Positions 1 through 17,168 of a stretch of 58,758 nt of DNA are shown here, one piece after another. The stretch's first letter is position 1; each line of letters opens with the position of its first letter. The position numbers and the translations under genes are program-made. This DNA is from Alphaproteobacteria bacterium (lineage in GTDB: Bacteria; Pseudomonadota; Alphaproteobacteria; Micropepsales; Micropepsaceae): the NCBI GenBank assembly GCA_009693985.1, contig SHWE01000007.1:1-58758 (forward strand). Reading direction: 5' to 3'. Under the pieces are notes generated by a model that ran no database searches, was not told the DNA's origin, and saw only the letters and a program-made list of their open reading frames with translations.

Positions 1-1409
1 AGATGCTGGGCCGCCAGCAGGTTCAAGCCTCTCGGATTGCCCGGGCGCATATTGTGGCTGCACGTCCACACATCGTATTGCCAATTGACGATGTTGCCGT
101 CGGCGTCGAGCCCGGCCTGTCCCGTCATTTCCATCGCCGAGCCGAATGGCTCCCAGCCGAACTCGTCATTGCGCATCCATTGCACCTTGACGGGGCGTCC
201 CGGCACAGCGCGCGCGAGCAAAGCCGCGTCGAGCGCGACATCGTCGGCGCCATTGTGGCCGTAGCAGCCCGAGCCCTGCACATGGATGACGCGCACCTTG
301 CCCGGCTCCATGCCCAGCGCTTTGGCGATGTCGCCGCGCAGCGGGTAGGGGCCTTGGGTGTGCGACCAGACGGTGAGCGCGCCGTCGGTAAAATGCGCCA
401 CCGCCGCCGACGTACCGATGGAGGCATGGGCGAGATAGGGCTTGCGATAGGTGGCCGAGACGGTTTTCGCGGGCGTGATCTCGGGACCGGCGACGGTGTG
501 AACGACATCGCCCGGCAGAGCGCGGGATTTCAGATAATCATACGCCGTTGCCGGTGTCGGCATGTCGGCGGGAACGCGCCATTTTGCGGCTTCTTGCGCG
601 CGTGCGCGCGCGTCGATGGCCTGTTCTTCGCGCGCCGCCACGACGCCGATGAAACGCCCATCGCGCACCACGGCCATGACGCCCGGCATTTGCTTCACCG
701 CCGCATCGTCGAACGCGGTCAGCTCGCTGCGGTAATTGGGCGGGCGCACCACACGCCCGAACAACATGCCCGGCAGCCGCATGTCGTGGACATAGGCTGC
801 GCGTCCCATCACTTTGTCCGGAATATCGATGCGCTGCGCCGAGCGACCGACGATTTTGTGCGCGGCCGGAGCTTTCGGCCTCGCCGCGCCGGTCGCTTCG
901 CGTTGCAGGGAGATATCGGCGGCGATCGCCCAATAGGTGATGGTCTTGTCGCCGCTTCGAACGGTGCCGTCTTCGACGCTGAAAGAATTCGCCGGAACGG
1001 CAAGACGCTCGGCCGCCTTCTCCAACAGGATCGCGCGCGCTTCCGCCGCCGCCTGACGCAACGCCGCGCCGCCCGCCTCCATGGAATTGCTGCCCACAGT
1101 GCCGCCTTCGTTCGGAGACCGCGTGGTATCGACCGCGACCATGCGTACGCGGCTGAACGCGACATCGAGCTCATCGGCGGCGATCTGCGCAAGCGCGGTC
1201 AAATTTCCTTGGCCCAGTTCGACGCGGCCGGACGAGACGGTCACGGTTCCGTCGGCGCCGATCCTAAGCCAGGAATCCAGCCTGCGGTTGTTGCGGAGCA
1301 TGGCGGGAACCATGCCCTGCGCGCGGGTCAGTTGCGGCGTCATGCTGAAAGCGATCACCAGACCGCTAAGCGCGGCGTTGAATTCGCGCCGGGAGAGTTT
1401 CGTGCTCAT
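1..1409 (-). CDS. Molybdopterin-binding subunit of a xanthine-dehydrogenase-family hydroxylase (partial)
   Basis: The reading frame stays open to the left edge, so only the N-terminal ~470 residues are present. It begins with a twin-arginine signal (SRREFNAA near residue 6) and a hydrophobic stretch ending in Ala-Gln, so Tat export to the periplasm is likely. Two features match the large subunit of isoquinoline 1-oxidoreductase-type (IorB) aldehyde/heterocycle hydroxylases: VELGQGNLTALAQIAADEL, and GSGCYGHNGADDVALDAALL, which is typical of the molybdenum-cofactor domain. The upstream gene's stop overlaps this start by 4 bp (ATGA), so the two subunits are translationally coupled. Family knowledge predicts hydroxylation of an aldehyde or N-heterocycle using water as oxygen donor. 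The substrate cannot be read from the sequence. Confidence 0.88.
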   Translation of the reverse strand, partial: MSTKLSRREFNAALSGLVIAFSMTPQLTRAQGMVPAMLRNNRRLDSWLRIGADGTVTVSSGRVELGQGNLTALAQIAADELDVAFSRVRMVAVDTTRSPNEGGTVGSNSMEAGGAALRQAAAEARAILLEKAAERLAVPANSFSVEDGTVRSGDKTITYWAIAADISLQREATGAARPKAPAAHKIVGRSAQRIDIPDKVMGRAAYVHDMRLPGMLFGRVVRPPNYRSELTAFDDAAVKQMPGVMAVVRDGRFIGVVAAREEQAIDARARAQEAAKWRVPADMPTPATAYDYLKSRALPGDVVHTVAGPEITPAKTVSATYRKPYLAHASIGTSAAVAHFTDGALTVWSHTQGPYPLRGDIAKALGMEPGKVRVIHVQGSGCYGHNGADDVALDAALLARAVPGRPVKVQWMRNDEFGWEPFGSAMEMTGQAGLDADGNIVNWQYDVWTCSHNMRPGNPRGLNLLAAQH

Positions 1410-1873
1410 CCCGCCATCTCCCGGCCCGCGCGCTGAATCGCGCGGACGATCCGGTTATGGCTGCCGCAGCGGCAGAGATTGCCTGTGAGCGCTTCCTTGA
1501 TGTCGGCTTCGCTCGCGCGCGGATTGCGGTCCAGCAACGCCTTCGCCGACATGATCATGCCATTGATGCAATAGCCGCATTGCATCGCCTGTTCTTCGAT
1601 GAAGGCCTTTTGCAGCGGGTGGGGCTTCTCATCCGTGCCGATGCCTTCGAGCGTCTGAATCGGCGCGCCTTCGACCATGCCGACCGGCGTGCGGCAGGAG
1701 CGCACCGTGATGCCGCGCACCGTCACCGTGCAGGCGCCACATTGCGATAGGCCGCAGCCGAATTTGGGGCCGTTCAGCTCCAGATCGTTGCGCAGTACAT
1801 AGAGCAGCGGCGTATCGGCCTCCGCGGTAACCTCGCGGCTCTGTCCGTTCACCTGCAAGCGATAGGTCGGCAT
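1406..1873 (-). CDS. (2Fe-2S)-binding subunit of molybdenum hydroxylase (IorA-like)
   Basis: This 155-residue protein has the two-domain ferredoxin layout of the small subunit. A plant-type cluster uses C40, C45, C48 and C60 (GCGLSQCGACTV). A helical C-terminal domain carries the second cluster (MQCGYCINGMI and GNLCRCG). It would pass electrons from the molybdenum centre of the downstream-encoded large subunit to an external acceptor. Length matches the usual 150-160 residues. There is no FAD subunit nearby, as in IorAB-type enzymes that use a cytochrome or quinone acceptor. An AAAGGGATCTC stretch precedes the ATG. It has no signal peptide of its own and would be co-exported with the Tat-bearing partner (inference). 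Confidence 0.93.
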   Translation of the reverse strand: MPTYRLQVNGQSREVTAEADTPLLYVLRNDLELNGPKFGCGLSQCGACTVTVRGITVRSCRTPVGMVEGAPIQTLEGIGTDEKPHPLQKAFIEEQAMQCGYCINGMIMSAKALLDRNPRASEADIKEALTGNLCRCGSHNRIVRAIQRAGREMAG

Positions 1874-2429: not shown

Positions 2430-3782
2430 CTAGGGCGCTCTGGCCACGGCGGCGGGGCGGGTCATCGGATCGTTGCGGATCACCATGCCGCCCTTCATCA
2501 CGAAGCGCACATGTTCCATCTCGTTGACATCGGCGAGCGGATTGCCAGGCACCGCGATGATGTCGGCGAATTTGCCCTTCTCGATCGTGCCGACATCCTT
2601 GTCCCAGCCATAGTTCAGCATCTGCGCGGCCGGAAGATAGACCGTCTGTAGCGATTCGGCGGGCGTCATGCCCCATTGGACCAGCTTGGTGAATTGGTCC
2701 CACTGCCTGCCGTGCGGAATGGCAACCGAAGTGGCGCCGCTGCCGAGCACGATGGTGACGCCGGCCGCGCGTGCGTTCTTGAACGCCTGCTCGGCGAGCT
2801 TGAGCCGCGAATTGCGGCCATGCGTCGCTTCGAGATCTTCCTTCTCCAGCGCGAAGAGATCGTCGAGCGTGACGACCATCGGCAGGTTCTTCTGCTTGAG
2901 GGTGCGTGCGTCCGTAGGACTGAGCTCCAAGAGATGATTATTGGCATCGACGCCGGCATTGATGCAGCTCGCCATGCCTTCACCGCCATAGGTGTGGCAG
3001 GCGACTTTGAGGCCCATGCGATGCGACTCATCGACGATGGCCTGGACTTCCTCGAAGGTCAGCGATGGGGAATTCACCAAGGTCGCGTCGGGCTTCCACA
3101 TATGCATCACGCCGGCGAAATCCTGCGTCGTGTAGATCTTGATCCAGTCGACGCCGCGCAGTTTCGCTTCGCGCACCGCCGCGCGCGCTTCCCACGGCCC
3201 ATTGAGGTTCTTGCCCTCGATGAAGCTGTCCTGGAAACGCCCGGTGCGGATGTCGGGATAATAATTGGTGGCGCGCTGATTGATCGATTGGCCGACCACT
3301 TGCATGCGCGGGCCTTCGATGCGGCCATTGTTGATCTGGTCGCGTATGTCGACCGTGTTGTAGCCGCCGCGTGTATCCATATCGAGCACGGTGGTGAAGC
3401 CGGCGGCGAGATCGATCTGCACATTGGCGAGCGCGACGAGGGTGCGGTTGGCCTCGGACACGCCGCCGATATTCATGTTCGCATGGATATGGGTGTCGAT
3501 CATGCCCGGCATCATGGTGGCGAGCCCAAGATCGATCACGCGCGCGCCGGCGGGGATTGCGAGATTGGGGCCGACATCAGCGATGCGGTCGCCGCGCACG
3601 AGCACGACCGGATTGTTCACCATCGCGCCGGTGCGCGCATCGAACATGCGCGCGGCGCGCACCGCGACCACTTGGTTCGGCGGCGCCAGATATTTGCCGG
3701 TGCCTTGCGCGGACGCGGGTGTCACGGGCGCGCCGGTCATCGCGGCGGTGAACAGAATGGCGAGCTTCGCCTGCCTGAGCAT
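2430..3782 (-). CDS. Secreted amidohydrolase-family protein
   Basis: This 450-residue protein has a cleavable signal peptide (hydrophobic segment ending in PASAQ) and an amidohydrolase-superfamily metal-binding TIM barrel. The first metal motif is MIDTHIHANM. Further candidate ligands are the His of ACHTYGGEG and the HLLELSP segment. The C-terminus carries the composite beta-sandwich signature GTIEKGKFADIIAVPGNPL. These features match imidazolonepropionase/prolidase-like periplasmic amidohydrolases. The ATG at 3782 is preceded by AAAGGGGG. A longer frame reaches back to 4040 but would overlap the upstream hydrolase and lose the signal peptide. It is the last gene of a minus-strand run of hydrolases. 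Substrate unknown. Confidence 0.85.
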   Translation of the reverse strand: MLRQAKLAILFTAAMTGAPVTPASAQGTGKYLAPPNQVVAVRAARMFDARTGAMVNNPVVLVRGDRIADVGPNLAIPAGARVIDLGLATMMPGMIDTHIHANMNIGGVSEANRTLVALANVQIDLAAGFTTVLDMDTRGGYNTVDIRDQINNGRIEGPRMQVVGQSINQRATNYYPDIRTGRFQDSFIEGKNLNGPWEARAAVREAKLRGVDWIKIYTTQDFAGVMHMWKPDATLVNSPSLTFEEVQAIVDESHRMGLKVACHTYGGEGMASCINAGVDANNHLLELSPTDARTLKQKNLPMVVTLDDLFALEKEDLEATHGRNSRLKLAEQAFKNARAAGVTIVLGSGATSVAIPHGRQWDQFTKLVQWGMTPAESLQTVYLPAAQMLNYGWDKDVGTIEKGKFADIIAVPGNPLADVNEMEHVRFVMKGGMVIRNDPMTRPAAVARAP

Positions 3783-3802
3783 GGAAATTCCCCCTTTGAT
3801 GG

Positions 3803-4747
3803 TTAGGTGAAGCGGTAGAGCCGCGCCGGCGTATCGACGAGGATAACTTTCCGCATCGCCGGATCGGGACAATGTTCGGCGAACGCCGTCAGCAGTCTCG
3901 GATTGTCGACCACCTGATAGGGCGTGATCTTGCTGATGTCGCCCCGCGTGCCGCCCGGATGCGGCCAATTGGTGCCCCACAACATGCGGTCGGGACCGGC
4001 CGCGATCAGCGCTTTGGCGAACGGGGTGACATCGGCCCAATCGGCGCGTTTGGAAAGATTGTATGGCGCCGACAGTTTCACATAGACGTTGCGGCTTTTG
4101 ACCAGTTCGACGAGCGCGCCGAAGCCCGGCTGGCCCAGACCCTTCTCCGCTTCGATATTGGCGATGTGGTCGAACACGACGGGCACGCGCAAATTCGCCA
4201 CCGTCGGGGCCAGCGCGGTGACCATCGGCGTCTCGGTGTTAATTTGGATGTGCCAGCCCAAGGGCGCGAAGCGCGGCGCGAACGCATTCAACGCATCGAT
4301 GGCGACCTTGGGATCGCGGATGCCGGCCGTCGCGAGGTTCAGCCGCATGCCGACGGCGCCTTTGGCGGCGAGCGCCCTTAAATCCGCATCCGAAATCGTC
4401 TGCGGCACCACCACGACGGCGCGCGCCGATGGGCCGAGCTCCGCCACCGCGTCCATCGTCGCGCTGTTGTCGAAGCCATAGGTGCTGGGCGTCACGATGA
4501 CATTGCGCGGCACGCCCATCTGCGTCCGCAACACGCGCATTTGCGCGACGGAGGCTTCCGGGGGTGTGTAGGCGCGGTTCGCCGTCATCGGATATTTCGC
4601 CGTCGGACCGACAATATGATTGTGGCAATCGATGGCGCCCGCCGGCATATCGGCAATCGGGCTCGCGCCAAACGCACCGCGCGGCAGCATGGTTGCGGCA
4701 AGCGATGCACCGGCAATCACGCCGAATTCGCGTCTATTGAATCTCAT
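3803..4747 (-). CDS. Tat-exported amidohydrolase, 2-pyrone-4,6-dicarboxylate lactonase-like (copy 1)
   Basis: The start at 4747 gives a twin-arginine leader (RFNRREFGVIAG) followed by a hydrophobic stretch. An ATG nine bases upstream is an alternative. The mature part begins with AIDCHNHIVGP, the H-x-H metal site of the amidohydrolase superfamily, and ends with MLWGTNWPHPGG, typical of LigI/PDC-lactonase and related TIM-barrel hydrolases. These open lactone rings or decarboxylate small acids. A paralogue lies two genes upstream (6330-7277) with the same order of motifs, which suggests duplication within the operon. Export is unusual, because LigI itself is cytoplasmic. Function is therefore assigned only at family level. 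Confidence 0.83.
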   Translation of the reverse strand: MRFNRREFGVIAGASLAATMLPRGAFGASPIADMPAGAIDCHNHIVGPTAKYPMTANRAYTPPEASVAQMRVLRTQMGVPRNVIVTPSTYGFDNSATMDAVAELGPSARAVVVVPQTISDADLRALAAKGAVGMRLNLATAGIRDPKVAIDALNAFAPRFAPLGWHIQINTETPMVTALAPTVANLRVPVVFDHIANIEAEKGLGQPGFGALVELVKSRNVYVKLSAPYNLSKRADWADVTPFAKALIAAGPDRMLWGTNWPHPGGTRGDISKITPYQVVDNPRLLTAFAEHCPDPAMRKVILVDTPARLYRFT

Positions 4748-4769
4748 GTCACCCATCCCGAGAGTTTCC

Positions 4770-6308
4770 CTAACCCAAAAGCGCAGGCTTTCGTTTTTCC
4801 ACCCAGCCGGTCGCCTCGTCATAGGCGAAGGCCAATTGCAGGCAGCTCAGCTCCGCCTGATTGCGGCCGACGATCTGCATTCCCATCGGCAGGCCGCGCG
4901 CATCGAATCCGGCAGGCACATTCAGCGACGGACACCCCGTCATGGTGACGAGAGAGCACACCTCCATCCAGCGATGATAGGTGTCCATGGCGCGGCCATT
5001 GATCTCCTTCGGCCACGGAGTCTTGGCATCGAACGGAAACAGTTGCGCGGACGGCAGCACGATGAATTCGTAGCGCTCCTGGAAGCGGCGCACCGCCTGA
5101 TACCAGGCCGTGCGCACCGCGGCCGCCGCCGAAATATCGGCCGGGGTGAGTTTCTCCGCGGTTTCGACTTCGTAATGCGCTTCCTGCTTCAGCAGCGCCC
5201 GCTTGGCCGGATCGGCGTAGAAGGGACGCAGCTGCCCCGCGTTGCCGACGGCGCGCAATTTCACCCAGGAATCCCACACGCGCGCCAGCGGATAATCGGG
5301 CCGCGCCTCTTCGACGATGCAGCCCAGCGCTTCCAAACTTTTGAGCGCGGTGCGGCAGAGCTCCAGCACGCCCGGCTCGAAGGCGAGCGCCCCGCCGAAA
5401 TCGCCCGGCCAGGCGATGCGCACCCCGCGAAAATCGCGCCGTAGATTTCCGCGAAACTGCGCCGGGTCTTCCCGGTTCGACAGCGGCGCGCGCGCATCGT
5501 AGCCCGCCTGGATGGACAGCAGCATCGCAAGATCGGTGACGCTGCGCGCCATCGGCCCGGAGACGCCGAAGCCGGGAGTGAACACATCGACGCCGTCGGC
5601 GGGCACGCGGCCCCATGAGGGACGGAAGCCGAAAACATTGGTCCAGGCGGCGGGATTGCGCAGCGAGCCGCCGGAATCGGTGCCGTCGGCGACGGGCAGC
5701 ATACGCAGAGCCAGTGACACCGCCGCGCCGCCGCTGCTGCCGCCCGGTGTCCGTGTCAGATCGTATGGGTTCAGCGTGGTGCCGAAGACGGGATTGAAGG
5801 TCTGCGAGCCGAGTCCGAATTCCGGCGTGTTGGTCTTGCCGATGATAATGGCGCCCGCGCGCTTCACGCGCTCGACATGGATCGCATCGGTCTGCGCGAC
5901 GAAATCCTTCAACAGCGGCGAGCCCATCGTCATGCGGATGCCGGCGGCGGGCACGATGTCCTTCACCGCCTGCGGGAAGCCGTGCATCCACCCAAGATTG
6001 TTTCCACGCGCCAACTCCGCATCGCGCGAGGCAGCCTGACGCAGCAGCCCGGCGCGATCCTGCAACGTCACGATGGCGTTCACGCGCCCGTTCAGCCGCT
6101 CGATATGATCGAGATAGGCGTTCATCACCTCGACGCAGGAGATTCGTTTGGCATGAATCGCCGCCGACAATTGGGCGCCGCTCATCGAGACGATATCGGA
6201 CATACTTGCTTGCGCCGCCATGCTGGTGGATCCCGTTTGACCTATGAACGCGGCCGCCGTCGCCGCACCCGCGAATCCCAGAACCGAGCGGCGATCCATT
6301 TCACCCAT
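4770..6308 (-). CDS. Tat-exported amidase (amidase signature family)
   Basis: This is an amidase-signature enzyme of about 512 residues. The Ser-cisSer-Lys triad is visible: Lys at about residue 116 (AVKDIVPAAG), the Gly/Ser-rich TPGGSSGGAAVSLA at about 187-200, and the nucleophile Ser in DGTDSGGSLRNPA at about 215. The N-terminus reads DRRSVLGFAGAATAAAF, a twin-arginine leader, whereas most family members are cytoplasmic. ATG 6308 has GGGAGA upstream, and ATG 6299 is an alternative start. It is flanked on both sides by the two lactonase-like hydrolases and is spaced as part of one operon. Family knowledge supports hydrolysis of a carboxamide or aryl amide. The substrate is not determinable. 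Confidence 0.87.
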   Translation of the reverse strand: MGEMDRRSVLGFAGAATAAAFIGQTGSTSMAAQASMSDIVSMSGAQLSAAIHAKRISCVEVMNAYLDHIERLNGRVNAIVTLQDRAGLLRQAASRDAELARGNNLGWMHGFPQAVKDIVPAAGIRMTMGSPLLKDFVAQTDAIHVERVKRAGAIIIGKTNTPEFGLGSQTFNPVFGTTLNPYDLTRTPGGSSGGAAVSLALRMLPVADGTDSGGSLRNPAAWTNVFGFRPSWGRVPADGVDVFTPGFGVSGPMARSVTDLAMLLSIQAGYDARAPLSNREDPAQFRGNLRRDFRGVRIAWPGDFGGALAFEPGVLELCRTALKSLEALGCIVEEARPDYPLARVWDSWVKLRAVGNAGQLRPFYADPAKRALLKQEAHYEVETAEKLTPADISAAAAVRTAWYQAVRRFQERYEFIVLPSAQLFPFDAKTPWPKEINGRAMDTYHRWMEVCSLVTMTGCPSLNVPAGFDARGLPMGMQIVGRNQAELSCLQLAFAYDEATGWVEKRKPALLG

Positions 6309-6329
6309 CGAGGGGTCTCCCAAGCGGAT

Positions 6330-7277
6330 CTAGAAACGATAGAGCTTCGCCGCATTGTCGACGAGAATCATTTTGCGCGTGGTTTCGTCCGGGTACCAGG
6401 AATTGAACAGCCGCAGCACCGCATTGTTGTCGATGCGGTAGAAGGGCGTGACTTCGGTGTTCTTCTTGCCCGGGATGGTCTGGGTGTGCGGCCAATCGGT
6501 CGCCCACAGCATGTGGTCGCGCCGGGCATAGATGAGCGACTGCGCGAGCGGGGTGATGTCGGAATAATCGGGCTTCTTCGAGACGCGGTAGGGCGCGGAC
6601 AATTTCACATAGGCCTTGCCGGCGCGCACCAGGTCGTGAAGGCCGATGAAGCCCTTCTGTCCGGTGCCTTCGGCGGCGGTCAGTCCGGCGAAATGATCGA
6701 GCACGACGGGCACCGGGCAATCGGCGATGGGACCGATCAGTTGAGCGACGACCGGCAGCACGGTGTAGATCTGGATGTGCCAGCCCAGGGGCGCGATTCT
6801 TTTGCCCATCGTTTGAAACAGCGAAGACGCCGCTTTGGGATCGCGAATGCCCGCCGATTCCAGATTGATGCGAATCCCGCGCACGCCCTTGGCGTCCATC
6901 GCGCGCAATTCCGCGTCGGAAATCGTCGGCGCCACCACGGCGATGCCGCGCGCTGTGTTCCCAAGCTCGGTCAGCGCGTCCAGCATGCAGGAATTGTCGG
7001 TGCCGTAGAAGCTCGGCTGCACGATGACGTTGCGCGCGATGCCGAGGCGCGTACGCAGCGCCTTCAATTGCGCGACGGATGCAGGCGGCGGCGTATAGGG
7101 CCGGTTCGCCACCATCGGATATTTGTCTTGCGGCCCGATGATGTGGACATGGCAATCGCAAGCATTCGCGAAGACCGCCGTCGATGGGGCAGGCGCGCCT
7201 TCGGCTTCGCCCGAGGCCATCAGGCCGGCGAGCGAACCGGCGGCGGCAGCGCCGAACTCGCGCCTCGTGAATCGCAT
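6330..7277 (-). CDS. Tat-exported amidohydrolase, 2-pyrone-4,6-dicarboxylate lactonase-like (copy 2)
   Basis: This 315-residue protein is a paralogue of the 3803-4747 product. It has a Tat leader (RFTRREFGAAAAG), the metal motif ANACDCHVHIIGP, a shared KYPMVANRPYTPPPASVAQL block, and MLWATDWPHTQTIPGKKNTE near the C-terminus. GAAGGAG lies 8 bases before the ATG. It follows the MFS carrier gene by 12 bp and precedes the amidase, consistent with co-transcription. The two copies differ mostly in the substrate-facing middle of the barrel, so they may act on successive or stereochemically different substrates (inference). Confidence 0.85.
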   Translation of the reverse strand: MRFTRREFGAAAAGSLAGLMASGEAEGAPAPSTAVFANACDCHVHIIGPQDKYPMVANRPYTPPPASVAQLKALRTRLGIARNVIVQPSFYGTDNSCMLDALTELGNTARGIAVVAPTISDAELRAMDAKGVRGIRINLESAGIRDPKAASSLFQTMGKRIAPLGWHIQIYTVLPVVAQLIGPIADCPVPVVLDHFAGLTAAEGTGQKGFIGLHDLVRAGKAYVKLSAPYRVSKKPDYSDITPLAQSLIYARRDHMLWATDWPHTQTIPGKKNTEVTPFYRIDNNAVLRLFNSWYPDETTRKMILVDNAAKLYRF

Positions 7278-7289
7278 GTCATTTCTCCT

Positions 7290-8609
7290 TCACTCCTGGC
7301 GGACCATCAGCTTCAGCGACGCGGAGAGCAGAATCGTCACCAGCATCACGCCCGCCATCGCCATGATGCCATAGGTGAAGCCGCCGGTCGCGTCCCGCAA
7401 CACGCCCATCATATAGGGGCCGACCAAGCCGCCCGTCGTACCGATCGTATTGATGAAGGCAATGCCCGCCGCCGCGCCGGCGCCGGTCAGGAGGCGCGGC
7501 GGGATCGACCAGAAAATGCCGCGCGCGGCGGTCACGCCAATCAGCGCGATCGTCAGCGCGAGCAATGAAAGGAAAAGCGAGCCGGAGAAGGTGTAGCTCG
7601 CGAGCCCGGCGAAGGCGAGAATGAGGCAGATCGTCATATTGCCGATCTTCCGCCCCGTGCGGTCGACATGCCACGCCCACACCAGCATGGCGATGGTCGC
7701 GAAGACGTAAGGCACGGCGACGAGGAAACCGATGGCGACGCTGTTGGGTAGATACTCCTGGATGATCAGCGGCAGCCAGATGCCGATGCCGTAGGAGGCC
7801 AGCGTGAAGCCGAATTGCACGATGGCGAGCAGCACCACGCGCGGATCGCTGAGCGCGCCACATAGCGAGGATTTCGGAGAATCGAAAGTTTCGGCTTCGT
7901 GCATCGCGGTGATCGCGGCGGCTTCCTCGGGCGTCAGCCATTTGGCGTTTTCGGGGCGCTCGGGAAGCAGCTTCAGCACGAAGAACCCGATCACGCAGGC
8001 CGGCAAGCTCACGATGATGAACATCCACTTCCAGCCATCGAGGCCGAGAATGCCGTCCATCTGGAGAAGCAGGCCGCAGATCGGCGCGCCGATCAGCGAG
8101 GAGATCGGAATCGCCGCCAGGAACCAGGCGAGGATGCGGGTGCGGTATTCGCGCGGGAACCAGCAGGCGAGATAGAAGGCGACGCCCGGGAAGAAGCCCG
8201 CTTCCGCGATGCCCAACAGGAAGCGCATCGCATAAAGAGAGTTGGGCCCTTGCACCAGCGCCGTGGCCGCCGACACCAGGCCCCAGGTAATCATGATGCG
8301 CGCGATCCATCGGCGCGCACCGAATCTGTAGAGCGCCATGTTGCTCGGCACTTCGCACAGCGTGTAGCTGAGGAAGAACAGCGCGGCGGCGGTTCCGAAC
8401 TGCGTGTTCGTGAGCCCCAAATCCTGATTCATGGTCAGGGCCGCGAAGCCGATGCTGTTGCGGTCGAGATAGCTGAACAGATAGCCGATGGTCAGCAGCG
8501 GCACGAGGCGCCAAGCCGCCTTGTTCAGCGCGGTGGCTTGCACGGGGGTCAGAGCTCTGGCTTTCGCCCGCTCCGCCGCGTGTCTTGCGCCGTAGGTCGC
8601 TTCCGTCAT
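7290..8609 (-). CDS. MFS transporter, anion:cation symporter (ACS) type
   Basis: This 439-residue protein has about 12 membrane segments. The signature LFSYLDRNSIGFAAL in helix 1 and the helix 2-4 block LSYTLCEVPSNMALYRFGARRW are typical of ACS carriers for tartrate, phthalate, hexuronates or 4-hydroxyphenylacetate. A cytoplasmic N-tail of about 30 residues precedes helix 1. The start codon overlaps the stop of the upstream dehydrogenase by 4 bp. Position within a hydrolase/dehydrogenase operon points to uptake of an organic acid as the operon's substrate or product, though its identity is unknown. Confidence 0.9.
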   Translation of the reverse strand: MTEATYGARHAAERAKARALTPVQATALNKAAWRLVPLLTIGYLFSYLDRNSIGFAALTMNQDLGLTNTQFGTAAALFFLSYTLCEVPSNMALYRFGARRWIARIMITWGLVSAATALVQGPNSLYAMRFLLGIAEAGFFPGVAFYLACWFPREYRTRILAWFLAAIPISSLIGAPICGLLLQMDGILGLDGWKWMFIIVSLPACVIGFFVLKLLPERPENAKWLTPEEAAAITAMHEAETFDSPKSSLCGALSDPRVVLLAIVQFGFTLASYGIGIWLPLIIQEYLPNSVAIGFLVAVPYVFATIAMLVWAWHVDRTGRKIGNMTICLILAFAGLASYTFSGSLFLSLLALTIALIGVTAARGIFWSIPPRLLTGAGAAAGIAFINTIGTTGGLVGPYMMGVLRDATGGFTYGIMAMAGVMLVTILLSASLKLMVRQE

Positions 8610-9670
8610 GTTTTCATGAGCCGCGCCGCCAAGGCCTCGCCCGCCGCCTTTGTCCCGAGCCTACCACCAATATCGCGGGTCATCTCAAGGTCGCGGACGG
8701 CGCTTTCGATGGCTTTCCCGATGGCGGCAGCGGCGTCGGAATAGGGCTTCGCGTTTTTGCGCCGTCCCAGCCAATCGAGCAGCAGCGCCGCAGAAAGAAT
8801 AAGCGAAAACGGATTGGCGAGATCTTTGCCCGCGATGTCCGGAGCCGAACCGTGGGCCGCCTGCGCCATCGCATGTTTCTCGCCTGCGTTCAGCGCGCCG
8901 CCGAGCCCGATGCTGCCGGAAAGCTCGGCGGTCAGATCGGTCAGGATGTCGCCATACATGTTGGTGGTGACGATGACGTCGAATTTCTGGGGCGCGCGGA
9001 CGACATGGGCCATCATCGCGTCCACGATGAAATCATCGACCGTCACATCGGGGAATTCGGCCGCCACGCGCCGGCATTCTTCGATGAACATGCCATCGCC
9101 GATTTTCAGCACGTTCGCTTTATGCACGATGCTGACATGGCGCTTGCGGCGCATGGCAAGCTCGAACGCGGCGCGCGCGATACGGGCGCAAGCGGGGCGC
9201 GTGATGCGCCGCAATGAAACCACGACATCGGGCGTCACCAGAAGTTCGGCATTACCCTGTTCCATATTGCGGTCGGCATAGAATCCTTCGGTGTTCTCGC
9301 GCGCCACCACGAGGTCGAAGGGCGCCACCGATTTGAACGTCACGCCCTCATAGGTGCGCGCCGGGCGGATATTGGCGAAGAGGTCGAGCTGCTTGCGGAA
9401 GAACGCCGAAGGATTGATCTCGCCCTTGGCTTCGTCCTTGAAGTCGTAGGTGGCGGCGGGTCCGAGGATGACGCCGTCGGCCTCGCGCGCGGCAGCGAGA
9501 AGCTCGGGCCGCACGGTGGTGCCGAAACGCGTCAGGCTTTCGTGCCCGACCGCTTCCTCGAAGATTTCAAGCTTGAGGCCAAATCGCGCATCGGCGGCGC
9601 GCAGCACGTGCAGCGTCGCCGCCGTGATTTCCGGCCCGATCCCATCGCCGGCAAGCACCAAAAGCCGCAT
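8606..9670 (-). CDS. Isocitrate/isopropylmalate dehydrogenase-family enzyme (tartrate dehydrogenase-like)
   Basis: This 354-residue beta-decarboxylating dehydrogenase begins with LVLAGDGIGPEIT. It contains the substrate loop VVARENTEGFYADR, the catalytic Lys in IVHKANVLKIGDG, the metal-binding TTNMYGDILTDL, and the adenine-binding AAHGSAPDIAGKDLANP. The family oxidises and decarboxylates 2-hydroxy acids with NAD and Mg/Mn. A stand-alone copy next to an ACS carrier and lactonases, with no leuCD genes beside it, argues for a catabolic role (tartrate/malate-like acids) rather than leucine synthesis, but LeuB function is not excluded. It is the first gene of the minus-strand operon that continues to 2430. 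Confidence 0.82.
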   Translation of the reverse strand: MRLLVLAGDGIGPEITAATLHVLRAADARFGLKLEIFEEAVGHESLTRFGTTVRPELLAAAREADGVILGPAATYDFKDEAKGEINPSAFFRKQLDLFANIRPARTYEGVTFKSVAPFDLVVARENTEGFYADRNMEQGNAELLVTPDVVVSLRRITRPACARIARAAFELAMRRKRHVSIVHKANVLKIGDGMFIEECRRVAAEFPDVTVDDFIVDAMMAHVVRAPQKFDVIVTTNMYGDILTDLTAELSGSIGLGGALNAGEKHAMAQAAHGSAPDIAGKDLANPFSLILSAALLLDWLGRRKNAKPYSDAAAAIGKAIESAVRDLEMTRDIGGRLGTKAAGEALAARLMKT

Positions 9671-10871: not shown

Positions 10872-11801
10872 CTACGCCGGGTTCGCCTTGGCGCCCTTCA
10901 GCGAGCGGTACGACATCTTGACCATGTTTTCGTCGGCCATCGCGTTGGCGCCGAGCGCACCGCCGATCTTGGCCAGCGGCTTCGCCGCGACGGCCTGATC
11001 TTCGGTCTTGCCGGCTTTGATCTCGGCCTGCACCGCGTCGCGCACCGCGACCAGCATGTCATGATATTTCTGCATGTCGGCCTTGCTCGCGAGCGGGCCG
11101 TGACCGGGCACGTATTTCGTCTGGTCGTTGCCCATGCGGATATAGGTCTCGACCGTCGAGATGATGCCGTTCAGGCTGCCGCCATTGGCATAGTCGATGG
11201 TCGGATACCTGGGGCCGAGGCTAACGGTGTCGCCGCAGGCGATCACATTCGACACCGGGAAATAGACATAGGAGTCGGTGTCGGTGTGGGCGGTCGCCGG
11301 ATGATTGACCATCACGGTCTGGCCGCCGACCATCAGCTGCAAGCCTTCGGTCGTGTAGGTCTGCGTCGGAATCCAGTCGCCTTCCGACGGCGCCGTCTTG
11401 TTGCCGGACAGCCCGTTGGTCGAGCCGTGCTGCAGACGCAGCGCGAGATTGCGGTGCGCCACGATGGTGGTCCCGTCCCTATGGAAGGGTCCGTTGCCGC
11501 CGGTGTGGTCGCCGTGGAAATGCGTGTTGATGAGATATTTGATCGGCTTCTTGCCGGAGAGCTTGTCGACTTCGGCCTTGATCTTGTCGTGCAGCGGAGC
11601 GAACTCGCCGTCGACTTGGATGACGGCGTCGGTGCCGACCGCGACGACCATGTTCCCGCCTTGGCCTTCGAGCATGTAGGTGTTGTTGCCGAGCGGTGTG
11701 GACTTGATCTGGACTTGGCTGAAATCCTGTCCCTGCGCGTAAGCGGCGACCGCGAACAGGCTGACCGCGCCAGCCAAGGCAAATTTGCTGATGTGCTTCA
11801 T
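10872..11801 (-). CDS. Periplasmic MBL-fold metallo-hydrolase
   Basis: This 309-residue protein has a Sec signal peptide (LAGAVSLFAVAAYAQ) and a metallo-beta-lactamase fold. The zinc motif THFHGDHTGGNG falls at about residues 93-104. Later conserved elements are TAHTDTDSYVYF and a GHG (YVPGHGPLAS). This group covers SoxH-like and quinoprotein-relay proteins and uncharacterised periplasmic hydrolases. It is not a class B lactamase that can be named. ATG 11801 is preceded by GGAGGGAG, and the longer upstream frame to 11879 would abolish the signal peptide. The gene is monocistronic. Confidence 0.87.
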   Translation of the reverse strand: MKHISKFALAGAVSLFAVAAYAQGQDFSQVQIKSTPLGNNTYMLEGQGGNMVVAVGTDAVIQVDGEFAPLHDKIKAEVDKLSGKKPIKYLINTHFHGDHTGGNGPFHRDGTTIVAHRNLALRLQHGSTNGLSGNKTAPSEGDWIPTQTYTTEGLQLMVGGQTVMVNHPATAHTDTDSYVYFPVSNVIACGDTVSLGPRYPTIDYANGGSLNGIISTVETYIRMGNDQTKYVPGHGPLASKADMQKYHDMLVAVRDAVQAEIKAGKTEDQAVAAKPLAKIGGALGANAMADENMVKMSYRSLKGAKANPA

Positions 11802-14902: not shown

Positions 14903-15961
14903 ATGGAATCCAAGAACGAAACCAACCATCAGGACGGCCCGAGCCGGCGCAGCGTCCTTTCCGGAATCACGGTCGCCGCGGCGGCTACGGCGATGTCGGT
15001 GGGGCCCAGCGCGGTGAACGCGCAGCTGCCGAAATTCGCACCGGTGACCTACTGGAACAAAGAATATGTCGTCATGAAGGGCGACGTGAAGCTCCAGCTC
15101 TATCGCCGCCGCCTTACCGCCCCCGCCGCGGGCCAGGCTCCGCTGCCGGTGGTCTTCCTGATCCACGGCTCCTCGATGGGCGCGCTGCCGGCCTGGGATC
15201 TGCAAGTACCCAAACATCCCGACGCCGGCGAATATTCGATGATGAACGTGATGGCCCGCTACGGCTACGACGTGTGGGCGATCGACTTCGAAGGTTACGG
15301 CGCCTCCTCGCGCACCAAGGGCTGGTCGGACATCAAGAGCGGCGTCGCCGACATCGAAACCGCCGTTCCGCTGATCGCGCGCGAAACCGGTCAGCAGAAA
15401 TTCCACTTCATCGGCTCGTCTTCGGGCGCGCTCCGCGTGGCGGCCTTCGGCATCAAGAATCCGAATCGTGTCGACCGGGCGGTTCTCGGCGCTATGACCT
15501 ATACCGGCAAGGGTTCTCCGACCTTGGAAGACCGCGCCAAGGATCTCGCCTTCTTTCAGGCGAACAACACGCGCCCGCGCCCGCGCTCGATGCTGGCCTC
15601 GATCTTCACGCGCGACAAGCCGGGCACGGGCGATCCGCGTGTCGCCGAGGCGTTGGCCGACATGGAATTGAAATATGGCGATAGCGTTCCGACCGGAACC
15701 TATCTCGACATGACGTCCAAGCTGCCGCTGTTCGAAGCCAAGGATTTGAAGTGCGCTGTGCTGGTGATCCGCGGCGAATTCGACGGCATCGCCACCGAGG
15801 CGGACCTTCTGGACATGTACAGCCAATTGCCGAATCCGGATCGTCAGTTCGTCACCCTGTCCCAGACGGCGCATAATCTCGGCCTGTCCTGGAACCGCCA
15901 CACCTTTTGGCATGCGGTGAACGCGTTCCTCTCGATGCCGAAGCCGATCGTCTCGGTCTAA
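14903..15961 (+). CDS. Tat-exported alpha/beta hydrolase (tandem copy 1)
   Basis: This 352-residue enzyme has a twin-arginine leader (SRRSVLSGITVAAAATAMS). The alpha/beta fold shows an oxyanion strand FLIHGSSMGALP, the nucleophile elbow IGSSSGALR (Ser in G-S-S-S-G), a candidate acid in GEFDGIATEADLLDMY, and a catalytic His in LSQTAHNLGLSWNRH. AGGAGG precedes the ATG. The next gene is a close paralogue in the same direction, separated by a terminator hairpin. Family members include esterases, haloalkane dehalogenases and epoxide hydrolases, and no substrate can be assigned. Confidence 0.87.
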   Translation: MESKNETNHQDGPSRRSVLSGITVAAAATAMSVGPSAVNAQLPKFAPVTYWNKEYVVMKGDVKLQLYRRRLTAPAAGQAPLPVVFLIHGSSMGALPAWDLQVPKHPDAGEYSMMNVMARYGYDVWAIDFEGYGASSRTKGWSDIKSGVADIETAVPLIARETGQQKFHFIGSSSGALRVAAFGIKNPNRVDRAVLGAMTYTGKGSPTLEDRAKDLAFFQANNTRPRPRSMLASIFTRDKPGTGDPRVAEALADMELKYGDSVPTGTYLDMTSKLPLFEAKDLKCAVLVIRGEFDGIATEADLLDMYSQLPNPDRQFVTLSQTAHNLGLSWNRHTFWHAVNAFLSMPKPIVSV

Positions 15962-15977
15962 GAGATCATTTTTACGG

Positions 15978-16013
15978 GAACGGCCTCATCTTGGGATGGG
16001 GCCGTTCTTTTTT
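15978..16013 (+). terminator. Intrinsic terminator after hydrolase copy 1
   Basis: A perfect 8-bp stem GAACGGCC/GGCCGTTC with a 14-base loop is followed by six T. It lies 17 bases after the first hydrolase stop, so the tandem paralogue probably has its own promoter in the following ~100 bases. Confidence 0.82.
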
Positions 16014-16121
16014 GCGGTATTGCCATGCTGGGCTGGGCTGGCTGGCGCAGCCAGGGCAGCATAGAATGGCCCCAGCATCTGACAGGGTCCCATCGGGAAC
16101 CCACCACGAAGGAGGGATTGC

Positions 16122-17168
16122 ATGCGTCCGGAAACCGAGATCGAAACCACCAGCCAGGATAATCAAAGCCCGGATCGCCGCGCCGTGCTGGCGGGAATTG
16201 GCGTCGCCGCGGCAGCCGCCGCCGTGACGACATCCGCCTCCGCCGCCCCGGCCGCCGCCACGACCTATTGGAACCAGCGCTATACCGCGATGAAGGGCAA
16301 TGTGAAGTTGCAACTCTATCGCCGCCGGCTGAAGGCGCCGGTCGCGGGCGAGGCGCCGCTTCCGGTTCTCATCATGGTGCATGGCTCGTCGTTTTCCGCC
16401 ATGCCGACCTTCGACCTCACGGTTCCGGGCGCCGGCGAATATTCGATGTTCAACGTCTTCTCGCGCTACGGCTATGACGTGTGGGCCATCGACTTCGAAG
16501 GCTATGGCCGCTCGAGCGTCACGCCTGGCTGGTCCGACATCAAGGCCGGCGTCGCCGACCTGACCGCGATGGCGGCGGTCGTCGAGAAGGAAACCGGCGT
16601 CAGGCAGTACCACATGGTCGGCGAATCTTCGGGCGCGCTGCGCTGCGCGGCTTTTGCCGCGGAGCATCCCGACCGCGTCGGGCGCCTCGTCTTCAGCGCC
16701 TATACCTATACCGGCAAGGACTCGCCGACATTGACGGAACGCGCCAAGAACCTCGCTTTCTTCAAGGCGAACAATCGCCGCCCGCGGCCGCCGGAGATGC
16801 TCGAATCGGTGTTCACCCGCGACAAGGCCGGCACTTCGGATCCGCGCACCCCGGCGGCGCTTATCGCGGCGGAAATGCCGTTCGGCGACAGCGTCCCGAC
16901 CGGGACCTATCTCGACATGACCTCGAAGCTGCCGATCATCGAGGCGAATTTGGTGAAGGCTCCGGTCCTGGTCGTTCGCGGGACGCATGACGGCATCGCG
17001 ACGGAAGCGGACTTGCTCGATTTCTACAGCAAGCTGCCCAATCCCGATCGCCAGTTCGTCACGTTGCCCGGTGCCGCCCATTCGCTGGTGCTCGGCGCCA
17101 ACCGGCAGCTTTTCTGGCACGCGACGCACTCGTTCCTGTCCATGCCGAAGCCGGAAGTCACCGTCTAA
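16122..17168 (+). CDS. Tat-exported alpha/beta hydrolase (tandem copy 2)
   Basis: The 348-residue product is a paralogue of the preceding gene with the same architecture: a Tat leader (PDRRAVLAGIGVAAAAAAV), MVHGSSFSAMPTFDL, nucleophile elbow VGESSGALR, RGTHDGIATEADLLDFYSKL and GAAHSLVLGANRQ. Copy 1 has G-S-S-S-G at the nucleophile elbow and copy 2 has G-E-S-S-G, the first difference to test for altered specificity. AAGGAGGG precedes the ATG. It is followed by a terminator and a convergent efflux gene. Confidence 0.87.
   Translation: MRPETEIETTSQDNQSPDRRAVLAGIGVAAAAAAVTTSASAAPAAATTYWNQRYTAMKGNVKLQLYRRRLKAPVAGEAPLPVLIMVHGSSFSAMPTFDLTVPGAGEYSMFNVFSRYGYDVWAIDFEGYGRSSVTPGWSDIKAGVADLTAMAAVVEKETGVRQYHMVGESSGALRCAAFAAEHPDRVGRLVFSAYTYTGKDSPTLTERAKNLAFFKANNRRPRPPEMLESVFTRDKAGTSDPRTPAALIAAEMPFGDSVPTGTYLDMTSKLPIIEANLVKAPVLVVRGTHDGIATEADLLDFYSKLPNPDRQFVTLPGAAHSLVLGANRQLFWHATHSFLSMPKPEVTV

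Follow-up and report, generated by a model that had tools for sequence, protein, structure and literature searches.

The closest solved structure to the two barrel enzymes considered here, by sequence as well as by predicted fold, is LigI, the 2-pyrone-4,6-dicarboxylate lactonase (PDB 4d8l), in which Arg124 and Arg217 (and Arg130) presumably bind the carboxylates of the substrate. Another relative, Atu3138 (PDB 4mup), which we take to be the galactarolactone isomerase, carries the motif WGTNWPH, with Asn aligned to the position of LigI Asp248. The authors who described galactarolactone isomerase reportedly ascribed its isomerisation, over hydrolysis, to the absence of a general base. Gli converts a 1,5-lactone to a 1,4-lactone by isomerisation (review PMC6353982). 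No operon with a Tat-exported LigI-like lactonase was found in our literature search, which ran mostly outside the subscription journals. The enzyme families discussed below have been described before, and the barrels have many exported relatives.

The window, that is, the whole stretch of 58,758 nucleotides analysed here, contains a six-gene operon on the minus strand (9670-2430), in which neighbours overlap by 4 bp or lie 12-22 bp apart (Table 1). A preliminary description of this DNA had listed the six genes, and their order, strand, coordinates and families were found as given there; three Tat leaders and one Sec leader were confirmed from the sequence as well. The Pfam Amidohydro_2 matches of the two barrels have E-values of 1.1e-43 and 5e-43. 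The operon is real and a chance arrangement is excluded, because a five-gene core with three Tat leaders recurs in another genome of the genus (G006), and A, the amidase and B recur with their leaders in a further one (REEB348/G002).

Table 1. Operon genes and nearby features, numbered from the first letter of the window.
Feature	Position	Strand	Remarks
Beta-decarboxylating dehydrogenase (Iso_dh)	8606..9670	-	First gene of the operon, cytoplasmic; Pfam 2.4e-88
MFS carrier, ACS type by best similarity (D-galactonate/HpaX-like)	7290..8609	-	MFS_1 4.4e-48; 4 bp overlap with dehydrogenase
Barrel A, Tat-leadered LigI-like amidohydrolase	6330..7277	-	Amidohydro_2; catalytic Asp intact (WATDWPH); predicted lactone hydrolase
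Tat-leadered amidase-signature enzyme	4770..6308	-	Amidase 2.1e-93
Barrel B, Tat-leadered LigI-like paralogue	3803..4747	-	Amidohydro_2; Asn at Asp248 position (WGTNWPH)
C, Sec-leadered Cc2672-like amidohydrolase	2430..3782	-	Amidohydro_1 7.7e-25; without catalytic Asp
DUF3574 gene	1973-2419	opposite to operon	Convergent with the operon end
[2Fe-2S] subunit and molybdopterin-binding protein	3-1873		Just beyond the operon
Metallo-beta-lactamase-fold protein	10872-11801		Secreted
Tandem pair of alpha/beta hydrolases	14903-17168		Tat-like leader on each

Conservation was followed through genomes of the same genus. The G006 genome has dehydrogenase, carrier, A, amidase and B in identical order, followed by the convergent DUF3574 gene and lacking C; identities to the window are 73-76% for the dehydrogenase (73%), the amidase and B, 69% for the carrier and 63% for A. 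G002 holds A, amidase and B on one 4.4 kb contig, the same contig as record REEB348, while its dehydrogenase gene, 71% identical, is the last thing on another contig, which is what a single operon split by the assembly would look like. On one contig of G004, a 54% identical dehydrogenase and a leaderless barrel are separated by about 8 kb. In G001 the dehydrogenase and carrier are adjacent with no barrels behind them, the contig ending soon after. The dehydrogenases of G003 and G005 are all distant ones, as are their barrels, which are leaderless, so the module is patchy. The preliminary description had held that scattering of the genes in relatives would speak against its proposal; as far as the five-gene core is concerned, they stay together.

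Read directly from the sequence, twin-arginine leaders open barrel A (MRFTRREFGAAAAGSLAGLMASGEAEGAPA), the amidase (MGEMDRRSVLGFAGAATAAAFIGQTGS) and barrel B (MRFNRREFGVIAGASLAATMLPRGAFGAS), and a Sec-like leader opens C (MLRQAKLAILFTAAMTGAPVTPASAQG). A leader was called Tat where it shows an RR motif and a hydrophobic stretch and is conserved in the orthologues, as is the case for A, the amidase and B. Loss of the leaders in orthologues, which had likewise been named as evidence against the proposal, is not what we see: each of the three proteins keeps its leader in 3/3 copies (window, G006, REEB348). The amidase leader is specific to the operon, occurring in 3/3 operon copies versus 0/7 close relatives elsewhere; the seven nearest non-operon amidases, 49-61% identical, are leaderless and begin at the mature enzyme. 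These patterns suggest that export is under selection and is not an annotation accident, the amidase leader being the best evidence for it. TatC is present in G006 and G004, and was not found in the window's own genome (G000), a 2.0 Mb assembly that is 64% complete.

How common such export is was gauged from 92 full-length barrels, chosen for their similarity to A and B, which means that the fractions do not hold for the family as a whole: 61 are leaderless with the catalytic Asp, 22 are leadered with Asp and 9 are leadered with Asn, under a leader rule that missed at least one barrel (L003), which looks leadered. A phylum-wide draw of 22 additional full-length barrels gave 17 leaderless and 5 leadered ones, all of the Asp type and none with Asn. 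The earlier statement that these families are usually cytoplasmic is therefore only partly right: 31/92 barrels, about a third, carry a Tat-like leader, many of them next to secreted sugar dehydrogenases. Tat-like leaders are found on 9/9 Asn-type and 22/83 Asp-type barrels, a comparison that involves about three independent origins and on which a tree-based test is powerless. The idea that Asn-type barrels are exclusive to exported proteins was not upheld, given these few origins and the Asn of Atu3138.

Other exported barrels were encountered along the way. Tat-leadered LigI-like barrels adjoin Sec-leadered genes of the GSDH family at several loci (L181:1079-4309, L184:5989-8261, L185:8247-10551, L069, L071, L072 and L078), one of which, L181, pairs an Asn-type barrel in tandem with one of the Asp type. 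In same-family genomes the barrel and GSDH genes are separated by 11-12 bp or overlap by a few bp, and these barrels fall in another clade than A and B. GSDH enzymes convert sugars to lactones by oxidation, and it is therefore reasonable for an enzyme that handles lactones to be their neighbour on the outer side of the membrane. A third Tat-leadered barrel of G006, of the Asn type (L095:6878-10152), adjoins the gene of a molybdopterin subunit that resembles xanthine dehydrogenase, and a TauD dioxygenase is encoded close by.

Barrels A and B differ from LigI in their Tat leaders and share about 30% identity with it. When aligned, A keeps LigI His31, His33, Arg124, Tyr156, His180, Arg217 and Asp248, and it has what defines a LigI-like lactone hydrolase (COG3618: Amidohydro_2 fold, HxH, His180 and Asp248). 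It has Ile for LigI Arg130 and so departs from the residue set of a 2-pyrone-4,6-dicarboxylate lactonase (Arg124, Arg130, Arg217). From this LigI-type catalytic set, A is predicted to be a lactone hydrolase. The only NCBIfam match of A and B is 4-sulfomuconolactone hydrolase (NF042924), at 164 and 183 bits versus a cut-off of 500, which makes them non-members. Predicted-fold confidence is high for both (pLDDT 89.8 for A and 91.7 for B). Barrel B has Asn at the LigI Asp248, Arg217 and Tyr156 positions, the first of these being Asn in its three relatives too, and the structure that matches it best is 4dia, the D248N mutant of LigI; every copy of B retains HxH, Arg124 and His180. A tree of 93 barrels places A and B as sister clades in one group of support 100/99, which indicates a duplication before these genomes split, after which B lost its Asp. 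This divergence as duplicates was absent from the preliminary description, which had two lactonase-like barrels. The label suits A, with its catalytic Asp kept; as a second lactonase B was rejected on the change of Asp248 to Asn, accompanied by that of Arg217, and it is probably not a lactonase.

With Asn replacing the general base, B has the residue feature of galactarolactone isomerase and is possibly a lactone isomerase. The analogy with 4mup is incomplete: Atu3138 has Gln for the first His of the HxH motif, which B retains, and Glu at the Arg217 position, shares 28-29% identity and branches apart from B in the tree.

The remaining genes are less specific in what they indicate. The amidase contains the motifs of the Lys-Ser-Ser triad (GFPQAVKD, GGSSGG, TDSGGS), bears the amidase signature, and scores 724 bits against PRK07486, above the cut-off of 465. 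Aligned with homoisocitrate dehydrogenase 3asj (5.9e-61), the dehydrogenase matches its catalytic Tyr, Lys and Asp motifs and lies below the cut-off of all NCBIfam models (the ICDH, IPMDH, HICDH and tartrate DH equivalogs). The carrier reaches 293.8 bits with TIGR00893 (cut-off 395) and with HpaX (cut-off 615.4), so that its ACS assignment is one of best similarity under the curated cut-offs. Neither the models of the dehydrogenase nor those of the carrier allowed an exact substrate to be assigned, every NCBIfam score being below its cut-off. For C, the nearest solved structure is the L-Arg carboxypeptidase Cc2672 (PDB 3mtw, 8.9e-58), with which it shares HxH, the Lys and two His; it differs in that the strand-8 catalytic Asp is missing, GTDAG being replaced by GSGATS. 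Its paralogue in the same genome (C59) retains the Asp (GSGVDGS), and is the only one found at the threshold used; no C orthologue is present in the G006 operon, for which reason C was rejected as a core member. We regard C as a lineage-specific addition of doubtful activity. The preliminary description had placed this last amidohydrolase in the pathway: its Sec leader is indeed there, but it lacks the catalytic Asp and lies outside the conserved core.

Units that combine a lactonase, a dehydrogenase and a carboxylate transporter occur in several lineages. Across alpha- and betaproteobacteria, dehydrogenases 49-68% identical to the one in the window adjoin or lie near LigI-like barrels, in a set that was gathered partly by searching with the dehydrogenase and that gives examples of the linkage, not a rate. 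The nearest likeness is a Bordetella sp. locus (L004), where a 65% identical dehydrogenase is directly followed, after 2 bp, by an Asp-type LigI-like barrel; it differs in that the barrel is leaderless, there is no amidase or second barrel, and the transporter receptors are of another kind (TctC). The two genes overlap by 4 bp in G241 (L204), with a leaderless Asp-type barrel and TRAP-like genes. Leaderless Asp-type barrels also occur in G446 (L126), together with aconitase, Ldh_2 and a carrier of ACS-like type, and in L009, where Ldh_2, a receptor resembling TctC and a pair of MmgE/PrpD-like genes, of which Pfam confirms one, accompany it; in Rhodoplanes (L031) and rhizobia (L015, L037) the dehydrogenase is beside or near an Asp-type barrel. 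The aconitase and MmgE/PrpD genes point to tricarboxylate-like acids. Carriers at these loci vary (TctC, TRAP, ACS or ABC), and recurrent linkage with varied carboxylate transporters agrees with a route in which a lactone is hydrolysed and the acid is taken up and oxidatively decarboxylated. In the present genus the barrel step appears, from its leaders, to have been relocated outside.

We give roughly even chances to the reading that the operon encodes a split module for the breakdown of a carboxylated lactone, an amide or both. On the outer side of the inner membrane, A would hydrolyse a lactone, B would act non-hydrolytically on the same compound class, with lactone isomerisation predicted by analogy to Atu3138, and the amidase would remove an amide; the ACS carrier would then take up the freed hydroxy-polycarboxylic acid, which the cytoplasmic dehydrogenase would convert to a 2-oxo acid by oxidative decarboxylation. 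Export, these reactions, the direction of transport and one pathway common to all the enzymes are what we infer; an isocitrate-type (malate-core) lactone as the substrate is a guess. Against such a module speak the amidase, whose part in a lactone pathway is not evident, and B and C, which lack the catalytic Asp; so do the patchy distribution, the failure to find TatC in G000 and the separate clade of the barrels beside GSDH genes. The periplasmic trimming of a lactone or amide followed by acid import, as proposed in the preliminary description, is plausible for the dehydrogenase, carrier, A and amidase, and needs correcting for B and C. If correct, the operon would offer a compact case in which the hydrolytic steps of a pathway, to all appearance cytoplasmic in other bacteria, were relocated outside, made visible by a leader on an amidase whose close relatives carry none, and it yields a precise prediction: lactones should be isomerised, not hydrolysed, by the Asp-to-Asn barrel.

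For the barrels themselves we put forward, tentatively and as less likely than not, that B and A are a duplicated exported pair of lactone isomerase and hydrolase acting before uptake, the loss of the base having made the isomerase, seemingly also separately in other exported barrels. A doubtful but possible reading, which departs from the split module in the role of B alone, makes B a pseudoenzyme without catalysis of its own, there to bind the substrate or to form a pair with A: Arg217 and Tyr156 are lost along with Asp248, the engineered LigI D248N crystallised as a complex, and C is likewise without its Asp. The retention of HxH, Arg124 and His180 in every copy of B and its intact predicted fold argue otherwise, as does the naturally Asn-bearing Atu3138, which, taken as galactarolactone isomerase, is an active isomerase (function in PMC6353982). 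It is unlikely that the operon combines two units with little connection, one a dehydrogenase and carrier that handle a free hydroxy acid, the other a set of exported hydrolases that was acquired separately and is co-transcribed by chance. The G001 pair with no barrels behind it and the joining of C in the present lineage only would suit such an origin, but the identical five-gene order in G006 and the dehydrogenase-barrel linkage in distant taxa do not. Exported hydrolases for two unrelated bonds, lactone and amide, would fit broad clearance about as well as a linear pathway, and the set might accordingly serve detoxification or signal quenching against competitors' lactones and amides, with carrier and dehydrogenase only salvaging the products. 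We consider this improbable, since the dehydrogenase pairs elsewhere with leaderless, probably cytoplasmic barrels and carboxylate transporters, which fits catabolism, and A keeps Arg124 and Arg217, the presumed carboxylate binders.

Several neighbouring genes of the window may be exported as well. The molybdopterin-binding protein has a Tat-leader-like N-terminus (MSTKLSRREFNAALSGL) and, with its [2Fe-2S] subunit, is likely an exported molybdenum oxidoreductase. A gene start similar to those of the tandem alpha/beta hydrolases is found in G002 (L178:5178-6218). The nearest model to the metallo-beta-lactamase-fold protein is a quinoprotein relay hydrolase, below cut-off, and a 68% identical relative of it sits just upstream of the dehydrogenase in G002.
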